Origin: an uncultured Glaciecola sp. | GTDB lineage: Bacteria > Pseudomonadota > Gammaproteobacteria > Enterobacterales > Alteromonadaceae | Length of the DNA stretch: 64,000 nucleotides | Direction: 5' to 3' | Assembly (NCBI RefSeq): GCF_937770335.1 | Contig: NZ_CALJHY010000001.1 | Span: 1 to 64,000, forward strand | Shown here: piece by piece, positions 686 through 9,255 of the stretch | How the letters are laid out: each line of letters opens with the position of its first letter | How positions within the stretch are numbered: the first letter of the stretch is position 1 | Translations under genes and position numbers: made by a program | Notes under the pieces: generated by a model | Seen by the model: the letters and a program-made list of their open reading frames with translations, nothing else | What the model was told of the DNA's origin: nothing | Database searches by the model: none

Positions 686-1188
686 GGTACTGTCGAGTTA
701 ACGAGCAGACTCAGAAACGTGCGATAATCAGGGCATGAAAAATACTACTATTTATGCCGGATATCGCTATCCCTCCCAAATAATCAGTCACGCTGTGTGG
801 CTTTATCATAGATTTACACTTAGCTTTCGTGACATCGAAGAATGGCTGGCAGCAAGAGGCATTGCCGTCAGTTACGAAACCATCAGAAACTGTTGTCATA
901 AATGGAGTGCTGCATTATCTTTGGCGGGCAGTCGGCAGGGATGGTGACGAAATTGACATTCTAATTAAGAAGCGTAAGGACAAGAAAGTCACGAGACAAT
1001 TTTTTCGAAAGTCACTCAAAGGCCAGCAGGCCTCGCCAATCAAGATAGTCACTGATAAATTGCGCCGTTATTTAGCAGCAAAAAAAGAGCTGATACCTGA
1101 TGTTGAGCATTCTATCAAGCAATACGAAAATAACAGATGCGAATTATCCATCATTCGCTTAACTTCATATTTAACACTTAGCCATTGA
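686..1188 (+). mobile_element. Decayed IS6-family insertion sequence (transposase pseudogene)
   Basis: The frame from 735 reads YRYPSQIISHAVWLYHRFTL then SFRDIEEWLAARGIAVSYET, the typical N-terminus of IS6/IS26-family transposases. After an internal deletion it continues in another frame (about 905) as HYLWRAVGRDGDEIDILIKK, ...QFFRKSLKGQ..., IVTDKLRRY. The segment carrying the first catalytic Asp (WHLDEVF region in the family) is missing. The second Asp (TDKL) and a trace of the Glu motif (NNRCE) remain, and the C-terminus is gone. GGTACTGTCGAGTTAA at 686-701 resembles an IS6 terminal repeat; no right end was found. The element cannot encode an active transposase. A second fragment of the same family lies at about 2541-2745. 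Confidence 0.85.
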
Positions 1189-1232: not shown

Positions 1233-2366
1233 CTAAAAAACAAACGGAGAAATATACTCATCGTAAATATAAACAGCAATTTTTAGTCCGCCAAATACGA
1301 TAGCGATATCACGTACCAAAACAAGTGTTTTCTTTTCTTTTTTTGCATTAATCTCTTCGTCCAATGGCATTGGGGATAGTTCGTCAAGATGATCAAAATC
1401 CACATATTTACCTTCCGCATTAATAGCCAGTAGCTCTTCTTGTTTTTTTAAGGTGAGGTCATTGTTTGCGTCTTTAATCCAACTGTTAATGACATTTGAA
1501 GGCATAGTCATTGCGAAATAAGTAATGATGAAGAAAAATATCTTTTGAATTGCTCGCCATACCTCAGGCCACCACCCCTGTGAAACGTCATGTGGTAACA
1601 TGATTACCACCCCTGCTAACGCCATAAAGTAAATGGCGATCCAAGGTACGTAAATGACATATTTTAATCGAGTAAAATACTTTATAGCATCTTCATGAAC
1701 CCAATATTGCTCACGTATCTTTTCAGCAGTCTTAGCTAAAAGCGCCTCTTTTTGATGCTGCTCAGCAAGTGCATGACATTTTTCTGTATTTAACTTGATA
1801 TAGTCAGCGCATCCTCTTCCATATGCTGCTTTCATATCCGCACCTTGAAATGGCGGATAAATCATCGAAATAACTTCTCCAGCATCGTTAAAGACAAAGT
1901 GTACTTTTGGGTAGGCTGTAAAGAAGAAAACAAATTCTTTTGTTTTATGTCGGATACTGAAACTATCATGACAGTTCCCATCCGCACCAGCATTATAGGC
2001 CATATCAAGCATATATTGGCTTGTTGCGCCGATAATCCCTACGTCTTTTAACCTAGCTAAAAAACCTTGACTGATAAGGCCCCTTATTCGAGAATCATAT
2101 CCATAATCTGGCTTACAGCTATATGTCAGGCTACCATCTTCATTCAGGATATAGCGGTATGTAGCGACCTCAAAATCTATATTGTAGCCCCAGCCATATG
2201 CGTACCTGAATTGCGCATTCAACCTAGATTGATTTTGTCGGTCCTCCTGATCCAAAAGGCTGCGGCGACAACTAGGGCAGTACTTCCAAAGCATGCCAGA
2301 GTTATCCCTATAATAATTATAAAAATATGAATCAGAACAACGTTCACATGTACGCATATCAGACAT
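1233..2366 (-). CDS. Zinc-ribbon membrane protein of unknown function
   Basis: A 377-residue protein I do not recognise. The N-terminus has two Cys pairs (C7-x2-C10 and C30-x2-C33) separated by an aromatic stretch, as in a small zinc ribbon. The middle is soluble. Hydrophobic segments lie near residues 235-258 and 270-285, and a last one near 350-368, so the C-terminal part is probably in the inner membrane. It is flanked on both sides by IS6-family remnants (686-1188 and about 2541-2745), which suggests arrival as cargo. The frame is intact, so it may still be expressed. Function is unknown. Confidence 0.6.
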   Translation of the reverse strand: MSDMRTCERCSDSYFYNYYRDNSGMLWKYCPSCRRSLLDQEDRQNQSRLNAQFRYAYGWGYNIDFEVATYRYILNEDGSLTYSCKPDYGYDSRIRGLISQGFLARLKDVGIIGATSQYMLDMAYNAGADGNCHDSFSIRHKTKEFVFFFTAYPKVHFVFNDAGEVISMIYPPFQGADMKAAYGRGCADYIKLNTEKCHALAEQHQKEALLAKTAEKIREQYWVHEDAIKYFTRLKYVIYVPWIAIYFMALAGVVIMLPHDVSQGWWPEVWRAIQKIFFFIITYFAMTMPSNVINSWIKDANNDLTLKKQEELLAINAEGKYVDFDHLDELSPMPLDEEINAKKEKKTLVLVRDIAIVFGGLKIAVYIYDEYISPFVF

Positions 2367-2540
2367 TTAGTAAACTCCATATTTTTCATAGTGTTGATAG
2401 GTGAAGAAAATATACCCTAATCAAGTCCAATGTAAACATTGATTTGGGTGGGCGTGGGCAGGATTTTGTATAGGTAAAATAAAACAAGCACTTACCCTTT
2501 AGTGCAAACAAACTCTGAATATTTTTTATGATGATGAACG

Positions 2541-2745
2541 GCTTTTATTCAATGCCATTTACACTGAGCTTCCGATACATCAAGGAATTTCTATCCGCAA
2601 GAGACTTTGCCATCACTCTCGCCTTTTTCTTAGTCAATGAGCCCAAATATATACCGAAATTGGGTGCACAATCGATGCACGGATCACCACCAGTATTAAG
2701 TAATAAATGGCTCTTTTGGATTAATATTGACAATTTGACCCACAT
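2541..2745 (+). mobile_element. Second IS6-family transposase fragment
   Basis: The segment translates to FTLSFRYIKEFLSARDFAIT, which matches the IS6 N-terminal motif in the first remnant (FTLSFRDIEEWLAARGIAVS). The nucleotide match over 2559-2620 is also clear by eye. Downstream, in shifted frames, are traces of the next family blocks: a K-L-G-A-Q stretch, then ARITTSI, then a DKW-like block near 2705. It has several frame breaks and no DDE triad, so it is only a relic. Its orientation is the same as the first copy. Confidence 0.7.
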
Positions 2746-2868
2746 CAATATCGCCCGTCACTATTCAGCTTAGATTAATAACACTTACATTAGTCATCTG
2801 CGTCTAAAGTCGCGGATGTAAATAAGTGCGATGCCAACAATTATTAACTTATTAAGAGGAATATAACC

Positions 2869-3366
2869 ATGTCAAAGGTTTCTATAAAAACTCATTCAGA
2901 TAACGGTAAAAATAAGAGTCTCAACCCTTTCAGTATGCATGTACCCTATATAGACGATTTCATTGATAAATTTGCTGAACGCTTGCCATTTAACCGTCCT
3001 AGCTTGCCGTCAGTTGGATTAGGGGACTTCAATCTAAACCCAAAAGTTGACGTCAAGGAGGACGACAAGTCCTACAAATTATCAGCCGAACTCCCAGGAC
3101 TAGATCTAGAGAACATCAATTTGGAATTGTCGGACGGCATCTTGACTTTAAGTGGTGAAAAGAAAACCGAAACAGAGGAAGATAAGGAAGGAAGCTACCA
3201 CCTTATGGAGCGCAGCTACGGATATTTTAAACGCAGTTTCACCCTTCCTCCCAGCGTACAAGAAGAGAAAATAAAAGCTGACTTTAAGAAAGGCGTACTG
3301 AGTGTTTTTATGCCCAAATCAGAAAAATCCATGCAACAGCAGCGTAAGATAAAGATAAATGAATAA
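2869..3366 (+). CDS. Small heat-shock protein (Hsp20/alpha-crystallin family)
   Basis: A 165-residue ATP-independent holdase expected to bind unfolding proteins in the cytosol. The alpha-crystallin domain spans about residues 55-155: it starts NPKVDVKEDDKSYKLSAELP, has the (G)LDLENINLEL strand, GILTLSGEKK, and the hallmark F.KGVLSVFMPK near the end. A C-terminal I-x-I motif (KIKINE), used for oligomer contacts, is present. A long N-terminal arm is normal for the bacterial class A type. AAGAGGAATATAACC precedes the ATG, a good ribosome site. It is a single gene; I did not identify a convincing heat-shock promoter. Confidence 0.93.
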   Translation: MSKVSIKTHSDNGKNKSLNPFSMHVPYIDDFIDKFAERLPFNRPSLPSVGLGDFNLNPKVDVKEDDKSYKLSAELPGLDLENINLELSDGILTLSGEKKTETEEDKEGSYHLMERSYGYFKRSFTLPPSVQEEKIKADFKKGVLSVFMPKSEKSMQQQRKIKINE

Positions 3367-3622
3367 AAGATAGTTTGAGCTTACTATCTTTTATAAATAA
3401 TATTTCTATACATAATCCTACAATCTAGTATTACTCCATTTTCGAGGACTCACTATAATGGGGTATTACTAGATCTCCAATCAACGGTAACCGCAGTGAA
3501 GCGGTTCTTAGATGATAATAAATCCTAATATTTGTCATCGAAACTTGATTACAGTCAAACATTTTTAAACTCCCAATCTTAGAATCGTCAATTCATACTT
3601 TTTGGCTTTTAAGGTTACCGTC

Positions 3623-4099
3623 ATGTTAAACAAATCGCATCATCACTATAAATCAATACTAACTGTAATCGTTTGCATTGCTTCTTTGTCATCCTGTGCA
3701 AATACGCAAGGGCCCAACGAATCTAGCGGTATGATTATTGGAGGCCTAATTGGTGGGGTTTTAGGGCATGAAGTGGGCAGAGGTAATGGCAGAACCATAG
3801 CGACAGTATTGGGTACGATGGTTGGCACAACGATTGGCGGTAACATCGGCCGCACCATGGATGCGGCCGATAAGCTTAAACTTTCACATTCCCTTGAGAC
3901 TGTTCGCTCTGGGGTTTCAACAAGGTGGAAAAATCCCGATACAGGGAATTATTACACAGTCGTCCCAACTCGAACTTATCAGGAAGGTACACAACCGTGC
4001 AGAGAATATCAGCTTGATGCGACTATCGGTGGCAAAACCGAAAAAGTATACGGTATTGCGTGCCGAACAGCGGATGGCAGTTGGAAAGTGAAAAATTAA
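3623..4099 (+). CDS. Glycine-zipper (2TM) lipoprotein
   Basis: I start it at the ATG at 3623 (158 residues). A hydrophobic signal ends in the lipobox L22-S-S-C25, so it is expected to be a lipid-anchored envelope protein. Residues about 35-75 form two glycine-zipper hairpin segments (IIGGLIGGVLGHEVG...VLGTMVGTTIGGNIG), like the 17-kDa surface antigen/SlyB family. The C-terminal half is a small soluble domain with Y(Y)TVVPTRTY and CREYQLDATIGG, matching the usual C-terminal domain of this family. It ends 12 bases before the amidohydrolase gene and probably leads that transcript, though the link could be only positional. Confidence 0.82.
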   Translation: MLNKSHHHYKSILTVIVCIASLSSCANTQGPNESSGMIIGGLIGGVLGHEVGRGNGRTIATVLGTMVGTTIGGNIGRTMDAADKLKLSHSLETVRSGVSTRWKNPDTGNYYTVVPTRTYQEGTQPCREYQLDATIGGKTEKVYGIACRTADGSWKVKN

Positions 4100-4110
4100 G
4101 GAGTACTCAC

Positions 4111-4908
4111 TTGACTCATAATAATCATTTTCAGCCGCTTTGGTCCGTGCACGAAGGCGAAGGCCCTATCTTCGCTACCGCACTGCATTCAGGGCATGAA
4201 ATACGCGCTGACTTAGCCAAAATTTTAGCGCTTGAGGAAGACAATAGACTAAGAGAAGAAGACCCATTCACTGATATATTGACCAAAGCAGTGGCAAACA
4301 GGATTGTCCCTATTCGTTCAAGATTCGAAGTCGATTTAAACCGTCCTCGAGAAGACGCTTTTTATGTTGAACCCGACGATGCTTGGGGTTTACATATATG
4401 GGAACAGGCTCCAGATCAAAAAATGATCGAGAAGTCACTGCACGAATTTGATCTTTTTTATGCTAAAACTAAAAGACAACTCTGTCGTCTCGAGGCTGAG
4501 TTCGGCCGGTTTGTCGTATTCGATATTCATAGTTACAACTACCGAAGAGAGGGCCCCAACGCGACTCCGGATGATCCAGCAAAAAACCCTGATATTAATA
4601 TCGGCACGGGGACAATGGATAGAAAGAAATGGTCAAGTTTAATTAACCACTTTATTTACGATCTTAGAACGTTTGACTATTTTGGGAAACACCTCGATGT
4701 GCGCGAAAATGTTAAATTTAAAGGGCGCCAATTTGCGACATGGGTACATCAATCGTTTCCTGACAGCGGCTGTGTGCTATCAATAGAGCTGAAGAAAATA
4801 TTTATGGATGAATGGACTGGCGAGCTTGATAGACGAAAACTAGATTTATTGTATGCCGCTTTAAAATCGACCCTTCCTGGGATTTTAAATGAGTTAAAAC
4901 TATTATGA
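4111..4908 (+). CDS. N-formylglutamate amidohydrolase family enzyme
   Basis: I choose the TTG at 4111, because AAGGAG sits seven bases upstream; this gives 265 residues. A GTG at 4060 would overlap the lipoprotein gene. Zinc-amidohydrolase motifs are visible: HSGHEIRAD near the N-terminus (metal and substrate His), a DLNRP motif, and FDIHSYN in the middle. The classical family removes formate from N-formylglutamate in histidine breakdown, but no hut genes are nearby. Instead it overlaps the next gene by ATGA in a unit with a metallopeptidase and an ATP-grasp enzyme. Its real substrate is therefore likely a modified amino acid or peptide amide (inference). Confidence 0.85.
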   Translation: MTHNNHFQPLWSVHEGEGPIFATALHSGHEIRADLAKILALEEDNRLREEDPFTDILTKAVANRIVPIRSRFEVDLNRPREDAFYVEPDDAWGLHIWEQAPDQKMIEKSLHEFDLFYAKTKRQLCRLEAEFGRFVVFDIHSYNYRREGPNATPDDPAKNPDINIGTGTMDRKKWSSLINHFIYDLRTFDYFGKHLDVRENVKFKGRQFATWVHQSFPDSGCVLSIELKKIFMDEWTGELDRRKLDLLYAALKSTLPGILNELKLL

Positions 4909-6797
4909 AAAGCAAACACACTTGCATTGATGATGACTTAGCAGAGGATGTCTGTAGTGCATTGGATAAGCACCAATCGGTAAAGCGAACGTTCCCTGGC
5001 TGGGGGCGGTTGCATATTGACCGCCAATTACCTTTTTTATGTATCTATATAAAACCCGAAAATCATCTCGATAAAGGTACTCCGGAATTGATACTAGGCC
5101 AAGCTAGCTATATTTTAGTGCGTGAACGCGACGCAAATACCCCCTCTTTTAAAAAATTATTAGATACCATTTCGCAAAAACTTGAATCTTTGTTCGGTGC
5201 TTTTTTATTTTTCGAATTTTGGACAACTAAGCCGCCTTCTCAGCAATCAAATAGACAGGTTAATCTGCATTTTGATATTAAAACTAGCGAAAATAATCCT
5301 CCGTTAAAAATCCTAGAAGAAATGGAAAACGCACTACTCGATATTGATTTTAACCAAGCAAATATCAGACTCAGTTTGGACTACGATTTCTATTCGCAAG
5401 AAAACCGAGTCCAAAATTTATCAATTAGTAACCTATCTAGTTCAAATAATCAGTATTGGTTGGGTTTGGCTGTGAACCCAATTTTTCGTCAGGGAAATAT
5501 ATTGTTACCTTACGAAATGCGACTGTTGCATGCCGGTTTAACTAGAGCATTACGTCGGACATTTTTTGCTTTTATTAGGAACTATACTAACCAACTACCT
5601 ACACATTTCCATGAGCTAGGACACCGTTCTATCACTCCAAACGTGCTGGATATTGATAAAAAGCTCGCTGCAGTAAAGGACCAGTTTGATATTTTATTTC
5701 ACGTGACGCCGGTTAATTTTGGAGAAGCATGGACTGCTTTTAGTGATAGTGAATATCTACGGATGCCGACATTTAAGTATCGCCCACGTCCTATTGATCC
5801 GGACCTTCTAAAACGCAAATTGTACGCTATTGAGATCGAACATATTGAGGATCCGACCCTACTTCATATTTTTCAAACTCAGCGTGAAGAAACAAGTCGA
5901 CTACTTGGCATGATTGCCGACCGCAATACGACTAATTTTATGCATGCCAGTATGCAAGTATTTGGTGGTGTCGACGAATCGCTGCTCGCCACTGCTAGGC
6001 ATATTTTGGGATGCGTAGCGGCAGAAGAACCCAAAGCAGTAAAAATTATGTTAACAGCACAAGAATTCAAGGAGAGAGCACAAAACCTGATTGCTGACTA
6101 TCAGTTACAGCATCCGAGCTTTTGTTATCCAGTTGAACTTCGTAAAGATATTCCAGGCGTTTTGGTTTCGAACGGAAAATTGATGATAGGTGAATCGAGT
6201 CATTTTGATAAAAACAAGGCTGACGCCACCTTAGCTCACGAAATAGGTACACATATGGTGACGTATTTTAATGGCTGCGCACAGCCCTTTCAACAGTTTT
6301 ATTCGGGGATGCAAGATCACGAATCACTGCAGGAAGGTTTAGCCGTACTGGCTGAATATTTAGTCGGCAAATTATATCCAAATAGGCTAAGAACCATTGC
6401 TGCAAGAGTTTGCGCAGTGCATGCATGTATCAATGGTGCGGACTTCATCGAAGTATTTAGAATGCTGACCAATCAATTCAAATTCGCACCAGAAAACGCA
6501 TTTCAAATTTGTATGCGTGTTTTTCGTGGCGGGGGACTTACAAAAGATGCCATATATTTAAAAGGGTTATTGGAGCTTATTGACTATTTAAAAAAAGGCG
6601 GCGATTTACATACTCTTTTTATAGGTAAAATAGCGCTCAAACATCTTCGATTTATTGAAGAGTTGAAATGGAGAAAAATGCTCAAAGAAGTCCAAGTTGT
6701 GCCGCACTTCCTGACCTTACCGCTTTATAAAAGTAGAATAAAAAGATTAAAAGAATCTGAATCCATTATTGAATTGGTAAATGGAAATGAATTATGA
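4905..6797 (+). CDS. QEGLA-motif zinc metallopeptidase (DUF1704, MATCAP-like)
   Basis: A 630-residue member of the family annotated as 'flavohemoglobin expression-modulating QEGLA motif protein'. Residues about 445-450 read HEIGTH, a gluzincin-type HExxxH zinc motif; QEGLA with the likely third ligand Glu is at about 476-480. Eukaryotic relatives (KIAA0895L/MATCAP) are tubulin carboxypeptidases that remove a C-terminal tyrosine, as known for the family. That suggests a carboxypeptidase-like role here, by inference. The first 300 residues are a poorly conserved extension. It starts inside the stop of the amidohydrolase gene (ATGA) and ends in the same way on the ATP-grasp gene, so the three are translationally coupled. 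Confidence 0.88.
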   Translation: MKSKHTCIDDDLAEDVCSALDKHQSVKRTFPGWGRLHIDRQLPFLCIYIKPENHLDKGTPELILGQASYILVRERDANTPSFKKLLDTISQKLESLFGAFLFFEFWTTKPPSQQSNRQVNLHFDIKTSENNPPLKILEEMENALLDIDFNQANIRLSLDYDFYSQENRVQNLSISNLSSSNNQYWLGLAVNPIFRQGNILLPYEMRLLHAGLTRALRRTFFAFIRNYTNQLPTHFHELGHRSITPNVLDIDKKLAAVKDQFDILFHVTPVNFGEAWTAFSDSEYLRMPTFKYRPRPIDPDLLKRKLYAIEIEHIEDPTLLHIFQTQREETSRLLGMIADRNTTNFMHASMQVFGGVDESLLATARHILGCVAAEEPKAVKIMLTAQEFKERAQNLIADYQLQHPSFCYPVELRKDIPGVLVSNGKLMIGESSHFDKNKADATLAHEIGTHMVTYFNGCAQPFQQFYSGMQDHESLQEGLAVLAEYLVGKLYPNRLRTIAARVCAVHACINGADFIEVFRMLTNQFKFAPENAFQICMRVFRGGGLTKDAIYLKGLLELIDYLKKGGDLHTLFIGKIALKHLRFIEELKWRKMLKEVQVVPHFLTLPLYKSRIKRLKESESIIELVNGNEL

Positions 6798-7831
6798 AAA
6801 TGGGTCTGTTGGTCAATAATATCTTTACTGAAAAGGCCAACTATACCACTACGCTAATTGCAATGACGGCCACAAATATGGGCCATGAAGTGTTTTACAT
6901 TAGCGTAGACCAGCTGTCTTACGCCGTTGACGATACCGTTTATGCTGAGTCATTAAAGGTAACGCCAGGTAAATACCGAACGCTTAAAACTTACCTAAAC
7001 AACCTTCAAAGTGAAAAAGCGCTCCATCAAAAATTAATCTTGGATAAATTGGATGTTTTATGGTTAAGAAATGATGCAGCTGAAGATGTAAATAATCGAC
7101 CTTGGGCTCGTTTAGCAGGCATAAACTTTGGTCGTTTGGCGATGCGCCATGGTGTACGCGTAATAAACTCTCCTAGCGGATTAAGTGAGGCCGTAAATAA
7201 AATGTATCTTCAGTACTTTCCTGAGGAGGTTCGTCCTCGCGCCATAATAACCAGAGTTCCAAGTGATATTAAACATTTTATTGAGCAGGAAAAGGGATAT
7301 GCAGTGTTAAAGCCATTATCTGGTTCAGGTGGACGCAATGTATTTTTAATTCGACCCGACGATAAATATAATATTAACCAGATCATTGAGTCAGTATCGC
7401 AAGAAGGTTTTATTATCGCCCAAGAGTATCTTAAAGAAGCAGCAAAAGGCGACACCCGATTGTTCTTACTTAATGGCGAACCACTATTGGTTAACAATAA
7501 ATATGCAGCGATTCATAGATATCATTCAGGCGAAGAAGATATGCGAAGTAATATCAAGGCAGGCGCTATATCCTATACAGCCGAAGTTACCCCTGAAATG
7601 CTCAAAATTGTAGATATTATTCGTCCTAAGCTTGTGCGCGATGGAATGTTTTTTGTCGGACTAGATATTGTAGGAAACAAATTGATGGAAATTAATGTTT
7701 TCAGTCCTGGTGGCCTAGTTGACTGTGAAAGGCTTCAAAAAACTCAATTTTGTAGAATTATTATTGATTCTTTAGACTCCAAAAATATTAAACAAGATAA
7801 CGCTCAGAACATATCTATAGCGCTGAAATAA
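6794..7831 (+). CDS. Glutathione-synthetase-like ATP-grasp ligase
   Basis: A 345-residue protein with the GshB/RimK-type ATP-grasp layout. There is an N-terminal Rossmann-like half (MKMGLLVNN, ...DVLWLRNDAAED, VINSPSG), then the glycine-rich nucleotide loop VLKPLSGSGGRNVF, a TRLFLLNGEPL strand, and the metal-binding LMEINVFSPGG near the C-terminus. GshB joins glycine to gamma-glutamylcysteine; here the acceptor is unknown. Its coupling to the QEGLA peptidase and the amidohydrolase argues for a peptide or amide ligase rather than the housekeeping glutathione synthetase. No gshA or other GSH genes are adjacent. Confidence 0.85.
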   Translation: MKMGLLVNNIFTEKANYTTTLIAMTATNMGHEVFYISVDQLSYAVDDTVYAESLKVTPGKYRTLKTYLNNLQSEKALHQKLILDKLDVLWLRNDAAEDVNNRPWARLAGINFGRLAMRHGVRVINSPSGLSEAVNKMYLQYFPEEVRPRAIITRVPSDIKHFIEQEKGYAVLKPLSGSGGRNVFLIRPDDKYNINQIIESVSQEGFIIAQEYLKEAAKGDTRLFLLNGEPLLVNNKYAAIHRYHSGEEDMRSNIKAGAISYTAEVTPEMLKIVDIIRPKLVRDGMFFVGLDIVGNKLMEINVFSPGGLVDCERLQKTQFCRIIIDSLDSKNIKQDNAQNISIALK

Positions 7832-8517
7832 CGCCAACCGAGCAAATTACTGAGCGGGATATTGTGATTGAAGATGTAATACATTTGTCGTTCTGCTATC
7901 AGTAAACGACATTTATATATATGACTAAGCACGAGTAAGTGCATTATGAATTGAAAGCGACTTAGCGCGATGGCACAACTCATGCCTGTTTCAATTCCAT
8001 TGATTGCATTTACAAACTAATGGCACTTACTTCACCATCAAGAAATAACCTACTGTGCCAGCCTCTGTCGCATAAATCAGGTATAGCTTTATTTGTCGCA
8101 CAATCGATAAAAATGTCTATTCCCGTTACCAAACAGCTGTCGAATATTTTTACACTTGTAAAACTAGCTTTTTTTTCCAAAAAATTTAACAAATATATGA
8201 AATTAAAATATTTTTTAAATAAAAAAAGGATGCTTTTTATTTAAAACAGAAAATACCCCTTAATTTAGCGTCCAAAAAACATACAGCAATAGACCATATA
8301 GTAACCATCAGTCAAGTATAATTTTAATCGCAAGTCATTTAAATAAATAACAAAAAAATAAAACATGTCATTAATTTTAAGAGCTGGCACCAGATGTGCA
8401 ATGTTTCTCACGAGATATGCCTAATTGCGATACGTAGTAGGATTAGACGAGTTGATCTCAACATGTAGTAACAATTTTATTAGTACGTTCATACATAATA
8501 CCAAATGGAGAATCATC
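7832..8517. other. Long A/T-rich intergenic region
   Basis: Separates the ATP-grasp gene from the PEP-CTERM gene. The open frames here have no family features and poor coding character. The only structure I see is the A/T hairpin at 8213-8246. The promoter of the PEP-CTERM gene should lie near the right end. Confidence 0.4.
8213..8246. repeat. Perfect 13-bp A/T inverted repeat (possible terminator)
   Basis: TTTTAAATAAAAA at 8213-8225 is mirrored by TTTTTATTTAAAA at 8234-8246, with an 8-base loop AAGGATGC. The stem has no G or C, so it would be a weak terminator; it could also be a DNA-binding palindrome. Confidence 0.5.
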
Positions 8518-9255
8518 ATGAATAACCTACGATCAAAGTTTAAAATATTGGCATGCTCATCGATTTTGGCTAGCAGCCTTGCCGTCTCTAGTTTTGCCCA
8601 AGCAGGGCTAGTAAGCATCAGTGACCTTAACGCCTCTTGGCTTAATATTAATCCAAATTCCATTAGTGCAATCGGTAATGGAACTAATTCAGCGTTTATG
8701 TACTGGGGCAATGACACTGGGTCGGGTCAAAGTGGCTATAATTTTACCACCGCCGCTGTGCCCATTAATATAAACTTACCACCTAGTCCTTCAGCCGCTT
8801 TTGACCTGGGATCTTGGACTCATTTCAATAATCCAATCACAGGTACTACACTGAATTCAGCCACGCTGGAACTTGCAGCGGACATATGGGTAGATACTGT
8901 TTGGGTAGGAGTAAAGAAATTTCTGTTCACCTTCAACCACAACGAAACACCAAACGGGGGAGTGTGTGAAGCAACAGGCGCCGGTGTCAATGTCAATGGT
9001 TGTGCTGACATAGTGACTGTCGACTATAGTCTTATTTCGGATACTTTTATGGTGGGAAGCGATGAATATACACTTAATATTTTTGGCGGTAGTAGTTATT
9101 TTGAGACCAAGGAAGCGGCTGATAACGCATTCAACATTCAGGGCGAACTGACCCTACGTAGCAACCTTGTACCCGAGCCCTCAGGTCTCATGATAATGGG
9201 TATAGGACTAGGACTGCTAGGATTTATGGGGACTAAGCATCGCCGTAAGCTGTAA
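8518..9255 (+). CDS. THxN-family PEP-CTERM secreted protein
   Basis: The ATG at 8518 follows GGAG and gives 245 residues. A Sec signal peptide (hydrophobic ILACSSILASSLAVSSFAQA) precedes the mature part. The sequence WTHFNNPITG contains the THxN motif that names this PEP-CTERM subfamily. The C-terminus is the sorting signal: VPEPS, then a hydrophobic run (GLMIMGIGLGLLGFMG), then KHRRK. Such proteins are recognised by exosortase/EpsH-type enzymes and attached or secreted with exopolysaccharide, as known for the system. No exosortase or polysaccharide genes lie in this window, so the sorting enzyme must be elsewhere. A strong terminator follows. Confidence 0.92.
   Translation: MNNLRSKFKILACSSILASSLAVSSFAQAGLVSISDLNASWLNINPNSISAIGNGTNSAFMYWGNDTGSGQSGYNFTTAAVPININLPPSPSAAFDLGSWTHFNNPITGTTLNSATLELAADIWVDTVWVGVKKFLFTFNHNETPNGGVCEATGAGVNVNGCADIVTVDYSLISDTFMVGSDEYTLNIFGGSSYFETKEAADNAFNIQGELTLRSNLVPEPSGLMIMGIGLGLLGFMGTKHRRKL

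Follow-up and report, generated by a model that had tools for sequence, protein, structure and literature searches.

A conserved gene unit joining an FGase-like amidohydrolase, a MATCAP peptidase and a GshB-like ligase in an uncultured Glaciecola: a candidate cassette for reversible amino-acid addition

N-formylglutamate amidohydrolase (FGase)-type enzymes act on small N-acyl amino acids, and the GshB (glutathione synthetase) family likewise acts on small substrates. FGase and MATCAP enzymes release an amino acid with a free carboxylate, the kind of bond that GshB-like enzymes form, and the eukaryotic tubulin tyrosine ligase is an ATP-grasp enzyme too. PMC10499314 describes MATCAP/TMCP enzymes as trimming protein (tubulin) tails. 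Here we describe a locus in which these families meet: in a 64,000-nucleotide stretch of DNA from an uncultured Glaciecola sp. (contig NZ_CALJHY010000001.1, positions 1 to 64,000; the whole stretch is called the window below), genes for an FGase-like amidohydrolase (FG), a MATCAP peptidase (MC) and a GshB-like ATP-grasp ligase (AG) follow one another. The three genes form a conserved, widespread unit, and we give a probability of roughly one in two to its being a mobile cassette whose enzymes reversibly attach an amino acid to, and detach it from, an acceptor that is a small peptide or an acyl compound.

FG, MC and AG are three consecutive open reading frames (ORFs) on the + strand (window 4111-7831), and both junctions are ATGA overlaps, as read directly from the DNA. 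An initial annotation had proposed three enzymes coupled in just this way, which the ORF coordinates and the Pfam names FGase, MATCAP and GSH-S_ATP bear out. Lengths below are in amino acids (aa).

4111-4908, + strand: FG, FGase-like metallo-amidohydrolase, 265 aa, TTG start (Pfam PF05013, E 3.5e-20)
4905-6797, + strand: MC, pseudo-FGase domain plus MATCAP/QEGLA metallocarboxypeptidase, 630 aa, ATG start (PF08014)
4932-5624, + strand: N-terminal pseudo-FGase domain of MC, residues 10-240 (hhalign profile comparison)
6237-6254, + strand: HExxxH metal motif of MC (H445, E446, H450), with QEGLA (E477) at 6330
6794-7831, + strand: AG, GshB-like ATP-grasp ligase near the PRK12458/NF009110 subfamily, 345 aa, ATG start (PF02955, E 4.3e-45)

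An even draw of 274 gammaproteobacterial genomes was searched with an AG profile at E 1e-60 and an FG profile at 1e-20. AG was found in 10 genomes, all with FG and a long MC adjacent; FG profile matches occurred in 15, among which the 10 AG-bearing ones score at least 280 bits, a dividing line that was drawn afterwards. QEGLA/MATCAP matches are present in 39 of the 274, comprising 10 trios, three fusions and 26 genomes without FG or AG at these thresholds, so the linkage is a property of the long MC form rather than of QEGLA proteins in general. From the MC side, we took the best 80 of 242 relative-encoding stretches in a species-genome collection; they were picked by long-MC patterns and therefore say nothing of MC without the trio. 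Within 2.5 kb of MC in these best 80 loci, FG is present in 74, AG in 76 and both in 70, and both partners are near MC in 56 of the 61 loci having at least 1.2 kb upstream and at least 1.5 kb downstream. By record title, the ligase rows of the 80 loci span 12 phyla. Starting from the ligase instead, 299 genomes of the phylum hold nine strong NF009110 places outside the window, eight of which directly adjoin MC; the ninth lies at a contig start (from base 48), and its genome has no MC match. The 274-genome draw and the 80 loci share genomes (G184 and the genome of L085 give identical coordinates), so these two tests are not fully independent. The neighbourhood comparison that the initial annotation had called for thus upholds the link for the long MC form, whose relatives mostly keep the genes as neighbours (10/10, 56/61 and 8/9), and withdraws it for QEGLA/MATCAP proteins generally (26/39 unlinked).

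The usual order is FG-MC-AG, and the content is kept despite rearrangement, as seen in MC-AG-FG (L092), AG-AG-FG-MC (L112) and MC facing AG-FG (L113, L118). At least two ligase matches occur in 17 of the 80 loci (split genes not excluded) and at least two MC matches in eight. Cassettes with at least two ligase matches and at least two MC matches (L055, L058, L063, L086, L091 and others) are mostly from Planctomycetota, and it is possible that they are systems adding more than one residue.

FG belongs to the FGase superfamily by profile and fold: it scores 73.5 bits against PF05013 (cut-off 28.9), and its AlphaFold2 (AF2) model, with a predicted local distance difference test (pLDDT) score of 95, has as its top fold match the N-formylglutamate amidohydrolase 2q7s (TM 0.75). 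The fold is also that of 2odf; after 2q7s come M14 carboxypeptidases and, as a weak match, PGA-bound YndL (5onj). In our redundancy-reduced alignments A2-A4 (56/76, 47/61 and 44/79 rows, each plus the window), H26, E49, D51, R71, D75, N77, R78, D138, H140, E226 and E234 of FG are invariant in 48 of 48 aligned rows. Stand-alone FG relatives, aligned with the fused-form FG, are found at L122:5612-8716 and L123:3502-6700; by eye, they adjoin a dicarboxylate/amino-acid symporter-like protein joined to a periplasmic binding domain.

The same two enzymes also occur as one polypeptide. FG profile matches fall inside MATCAP ORFs of 667-674 aa (L119, L121), and among 394 genomes of the window's order this fused form (class B) is carried by 22 and the three-gene form (class A) by three, the window's included. 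We fetched 20 of the 22 class B loci, the other two being assigned from ORF length and match range, and each of the 20 has a GshB-like ligase gene as its direct upstream neighbour in the same orientation, the two genes overlapping or lying a few bases apart; L119 and L120 likewise have a ligase directly upstream of the fusion. A fusion of FG and MC with the third partner adjoining is strong evidence of shared function. Class B often adjoins a LysR-type gene, which we take to be HdfR-like, and a DUF413/MaoP gene adjoins it in 10 of the 22 genomes (nine fetched, G445 by position). The fusion of Vibrio sp. HDW18 likewise has a DUF413 gene next to it (annotated maoP), and so, by eye, does that of Photobacterium sp. 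DA100, where the locus reads LysR-type regulator, DUF413-like gene, ligase, fusion. At L172:5565-9528, the class B operon has an acidic-tailed DUF413/MaoP-like gene on each side.

MC residues 278-614 match PF08014 MATCAP (E 1.5e-87, 294 bits vs a cut-off of 27), and residues 251-606 reach 316.9 bits (E 1.9e-94) against TIGR02421, under its cut-off of 338.65, which two fused forms tested exceed (382.7 and 403.8 bits). All 57 aligned long forms keep the HExxxH motif (H445, E446, H450) and the third-ligand E477 of QEGLA unchanged, and R538, R541, K547, D548 and Y551 as well. With the AF2 model (pLDDT 91.7, predicted TM score 0.91), the top Foldseek match is human MATCAP (7z6s, E 4.1e-8), and a profile alignment places the MC HExxxH on the MATCAP active site in 7z5g. 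A second, short MATCAP is encoded in the window's genome (C3:646044-647117; L125:5988-7142), with no FG or ligase beside it; by eye, it most resembles the MATCAP half of the fused form.

MC residues 1-240, overlooked in the initial annotation as a separate unannotated domain, gave no credible Pfam match. Compared with profile A6 (17 FGase-domain rows of the fused form plus two stand-alone kin), this part matched by hhalign at 98.2% (E 5.1e-14, 207 columns), and with the free FG profile at 89% (E 2.1e-6), while a control comparison with the AG profile gave 0.1%; the E-values refer to single comparisons. The column opposite FG H140, the presumed zinc histidine, holds W in 52 of the 57 long forms and H in none, E104, opposite FG D138, is invariant, and the FG segment SRFEVDLNR falls in an alignment gap when the domain is compared with the fused form. 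The profile match, the lost histidine and the gapped segment together indicate that the MC N-terminal domain is a decayed FGase. This identity is carried by the profile comparison, since Foldseek matches of the N-terminal part are weak and mixed (FGases 2odf and 2q7s alongside nucleoside phosphorylases and other hydrolases). We infer as the simplest history a fusion of FG and MC, then gain or duplication of a free FG, then decay of the fused copy into a part used for binding or docking.

AG matches PF02955 (GSH-S_ATP) and GSH-S_N, and its closest solved relative is GshB itself (1gsa, E 5.7e-49). At the same time, it stays below the GshB equivalogs TIGR01380 (180.6 bits, cut-off 299) and PRK05246 (186.3, cut-off 272) and below the RimK family (rimK_fam, 79.5 vs 143.4). 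It comes just short of NF009110/PRK12458 (392.9 vs 408), a cut-off passed by its kin in L178, L101 and L104 and by two fused-form ligases. The initial annotation had allowed that AG might prove to be the sole housekeeping glutathione synthetase; in the window's genome, a different contig encodes a canonical GshB (C3:611117, 243 bits), which scores 433 bits to PRK05246. A supported branch (96/97) of a maximum-likelihood tree separates 93 trio ligases, among them that of the window, from this GshB, the L119 class B ligase and two proteins that we labelled RimK-like; both GshB and L119 sit on long branches, and their precise positions are unsure. In the genomes of 40 of the 80 loci, GshB exceeds the TIGR01380 cut-off in 10; among the other 30, surveyed for two GshA families, GCS2 is present in 14, Glu_cys_ligase in three and neither in 13. 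On the separate GshB, the sub-cut-off scores, the tree and this survey, we rejected AG as the housekeeping GshB. NCBIfam names the NF009110 subfamily glutathione synthetase, and Sinorhizobium and Shinella records name theirs glutathione synthase; for this ligase the subfamily label is probably wrong. Two class B ligases pass PRK05246 (277.5 and 280.5 vs 272) yet not TIGR01380.

AG residues D291, E299 and N301, presumably metal ligands, are kept in 42 of 45 aligned rows. Altered ligases standing first in a tandem pair (L072:9196-10239, L103:5621-6664 and L110:9833-10876) carry E or Q at D291 and D at E299 and N301, and are possibly changed or inactive partners.

Given the chemistry of their families, FG, MC and AG would suit one type of bond, and this is the basis for reading the unit as a make-and-break cycle. 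The bond would be an amide linking the carboxyl group of an acyl or peptide moiety to an amino acid whose own carboxylate stays free. AG would make it at the expense of ATP, using as acceptor a small peptide or acyl compound other than gamma-glutamylcysteine. MC and FG would hydrolyse such amides, which would allow the cell to set, and to reverse, chain length or product level. The arrangement with FG and MC in a single polypeptide next to the ligase would be the ancestral or a sister form; in that of the window, the fused copy of FG would have become a non-catalytic domain, most likely docking the separate, active FG. We favour a small molecule over an amino-acid tag as the target, because the substrates of these families are small, several ligases recur in one locus (17/80), and no candidate target protein recurs beside class A when ORFs of at least 60 aa from the 80 loci are clustered. 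The widest non-core cluster in these loci is ABC-ATPase-like (18/80, nine of them Pontibacter).

In the window's kin, class A is an accessory and probably transferred cassette, since one of the five genomes listed for the genus and three of 394 in the order carry the trio. Class A is also found on large plasmids of Sinorhizobium and Shinella, and in the laboratory organism Sinorhizobium meliloti a large plasmid carries the trio with its gene order unchanged. A link to ion transport is possible: in the fetched flanks of the 80 loci we counted genes for CorA (7), CorC/CNNM (4), MgtE (4) and SLC12-type carriers (8), many of the loci concerned being from Poribacteria and the counts coming without a background rate, and Mrp-type antiporter genes lie near the Shinella copy. 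Magnesium transporters of three unrelated families or SLC12-type carriers flank class A in L061, L063, L070, L079, L083, L096, L102, L116 and the Poribacteria loci.

The product of the cassette probably serves osmotic or ionic adjustment, a suggestion prompted by strong low-salt induction in Photobacterium. In Photobacterium damselae at 1% versus 3% NaCl, PMC10308900 lists A0J47_RS17020 ('GshB') as up 38.4-fold and RS17025 ('QEGLA') as up 27.5-fold, together with RS17005 (18.6-fold) and RimK (RS00405, 52-fold), and discusses RS17020 as a GshB tied to colonisation in V. cholerae. RS17020 and RS17025 are likely a class B pair, judging by their consecutive tags, their names and the Photobacterium sp. 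DA100 locus rather than by sequence comparison. In a Vibrio vulnificus genome table, VV2_1203 (COG3930) adjoins VV2_1204 ('glutathione synthetase'). For a comparable set in Pseudomonas, PMC12239564 reports that the Rlo proteases are required when osmolarity is low and that a protease mutant is rescued by mutations in RloC, an ATP-grasp protein. Beyond PMC10308900 and PMC12239564, our literature searches found no functional hint, and no paper was recognised as describing the three-gene neighbourhood, in searches that did not reach a likely ATP-grasp survey.

Several points weigh against, or qualify, reading the unit as a reversible small-molecule cassette. Among the genomes of the even draw, the remaining five FG-positive ones hold three fusions and two stand-alone FG genes; one partner is missing within 2.5 kb of MC in 10 of the 80 loci, five of which (L041, L077, L089, L098 and L103) have enough contig; and the fusion stands without an adjoining ligase in L121 and Vibrio sp. 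HDW18, the L121 fusion (2058-4073) having R for the conserved histidine (VRSYN) in its FG half. The exceptions at the presumed AG metal ligands are the first ligases of the tandem pairs in L072, L103 and L110, and the FG zinc ligands are presumed by analogy. The absence of GshB and GshA from 13 of 40 trio genomes comes partly from metagenome bins (completeness not given) and concerns two GshA families only, and the salt data come from another family of bacteria, probably from the fused form. FG and MC might also catalyse steps of one pathway together with AG instead of opposing it, and the activity on protein tails of MATCAP relatives, as reported in PMC10499314, favours a protein target.

This last point leads to an unlikely but substantial alternative, a C-terminal protein-tag cycle in which AG would add an amino acid to a protein tail and MC, with FG, would remove it. 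Besides the tubulin-trimming activity of MATCAP/TMCP enzymes, it has on its side the ATP-grasp nature of tubulin tyrosine ligase and, for the fused form, a first candidate target in the DUF413/MaoP-like protein just upstream, often acidic-tailed: DUF413 is a neighbour in 10 of 22 class B genomes, and most of the listed tails are D/E-rich by eye. In the other 12 it does not adjoin class B, and in the window's genome it is on another contig; moreover, hdfR-maoP is an old chromosomal pair, so that the position of DUF413 may be mere inheritance. The small N-acyl amino acid substrates of FGase-type enzymes, and the lack of a target gene travelling with the three-gene form in the clustering of the 80 loci, also speak against a protein tag. 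A more elaborate version, which we regard as distinctly improbable, would make the unit a bacterial counterpart of the tubulin tyrosination cycle, with a dedicated ATP-grasp writer and an eraser made of a MATCAP and an FGase, either fused or docked by way of the inactive FGase copy, acting on the C-terminal amino acid of an acidic-tailed protein such as DUF413/MaoP and reversibly signalling ionic or osmotic state.

It is likewise doubtful that the enzymes perform a sequential biosynthesis, with FG unmasking an N-acylated precursor, MC trimming a peptide and AG ligating, to give one product and no cycle. The stable order FG-MC-AG, the fixed FG.MC fusion and the loci with at least two ligase matches (17/80) would fit such a pathway. 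Both hydrolase families, though, run opposite to the ligase by releasing an amino acid from the C terminus, and clustering of ORFs of at least 60 aa from the 80 loci gave no recurring tailoring enzyme (short precursor-peptide genes were not searched). Salvage or degradation, in which the unit would mainly break acylated amino acids or peptides and the ligase would be ancillary, seems very improbable: two of the three enzymes are hydrolases and stand-alone FG kin lie beside a symporter-like gene by eye (L122, L123), but AG is found near MC no less regularly than FG (in 76 and 74 of the 80 loci, respectively). Recycling of glutathione by the unit, with AG as a glutathione synthetase, is scarcely credible, since the NCBIfam subfamily name and the two fused-form ligases over the PRK05246 cut-off are set against a separate GshB in the window's genome, a tree that parts the trio ligases from it (with GshB placement unsure), and 13 of 40 trio genomes in which neither a GshB over cut-off nor a member of the two surveyed GshA families occurs.

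Immediately upstream of FG, two further features were read:

3623-4099, + strand: glycine-zipper (17 kDa antigen-like) lipoprotein (PF05433, E 7.4e-8), ending 11 bases before FG
4098-4103, + strand: Shine-Dalgarno-like AAGGAG before FG, spanning the lipoprotein stop codon, 7 bases to TTG 4111 (sequence reading)

TTG 4111 is most likely the FG start, in preference to GTG 4060. The lipoprotein gene pointed out in the initial annotation is real, though it looks like a local neighbour that is probably outside the unit, because blastp (E 1e-5, ORFs of at least 60 aa) found no relative of it in the 80 related loci; on this ground it was rejected as a unit member. Further upstream lies an IS6-like transposase fragment of 119 aa (window 829-1188), and downstream of the operon a THxN-family PEP-CTERM protein (window 8425-9255; NF038125, 122.8 bits vs a cut-off of 85).

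A cassette kept across 12 phyla without a known product is a good place to look for new peptide chemistry. The fusion and the decayed FGase domain offer a direct, testable link between enzyme families, and they suggest that coupling to a ligase was part of the evolution of some MATCAP relatives; if the tyrosination-like cycle were true, eukaryotic MATCAP would descend from an eraser already paired with a writer. Relabelling the ligase would change the glutathione and colonisation reading that PMC10308900 gives to the induced, probably class B, ligase.

How, then, does the unit compare with known systems? The NAGGN osmolyte operon also joins an ATP-grasp ligase and a peptidase and is tied to osmotic stress, but its ligase and peptidase families differ, and the NAGGN synthetase, amidotransferase and M42 peptidase names are absent from our Pfam/NCBIfam matches, which were general scans and not a test for NAGGN. 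The RimK/RimB and RloA/RloC sets resemble the unit in pairing an ATP-grasp protein with a protease; their proteases, however, are aspartic and retropepsin-like, with folds that differ from those of MC and FG, and they have no FGase or MATCAP partner. Among solved structures AG is closest to GshB (1gsa), from which it differs in its PRK05246 score (186 vs 433) and in its gene neighbours. FG is like N-formylglutamate amidohydrolase/HutG in its PF05013 match and its 2q7s/2odf fold, and unlike it in scoring far below the cut-off of the HutG equivalog TIGR02017 (26.4 bits vs 278.75). MC matches TIGR02421, the 'flavohemoglobin expression-modulating QEGLA motif protein', over residues 251-606, yet below cut-off, and our literature searches found no experimentally tested function for that QEGLA name. 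With the MATCAP/TMCP tubulin carboxypeptidases (KIAA0895L, KIAA0895), MC shares HExxxH, the third-ligand Glu, the R..G..KD.YL.G stretch (7z5g) and the fold (7z6s); in contrast to them, it has no tubulin target, is bacterial, carries an N-terminal pseudo-FGase domain and is encoded next to a ligase.

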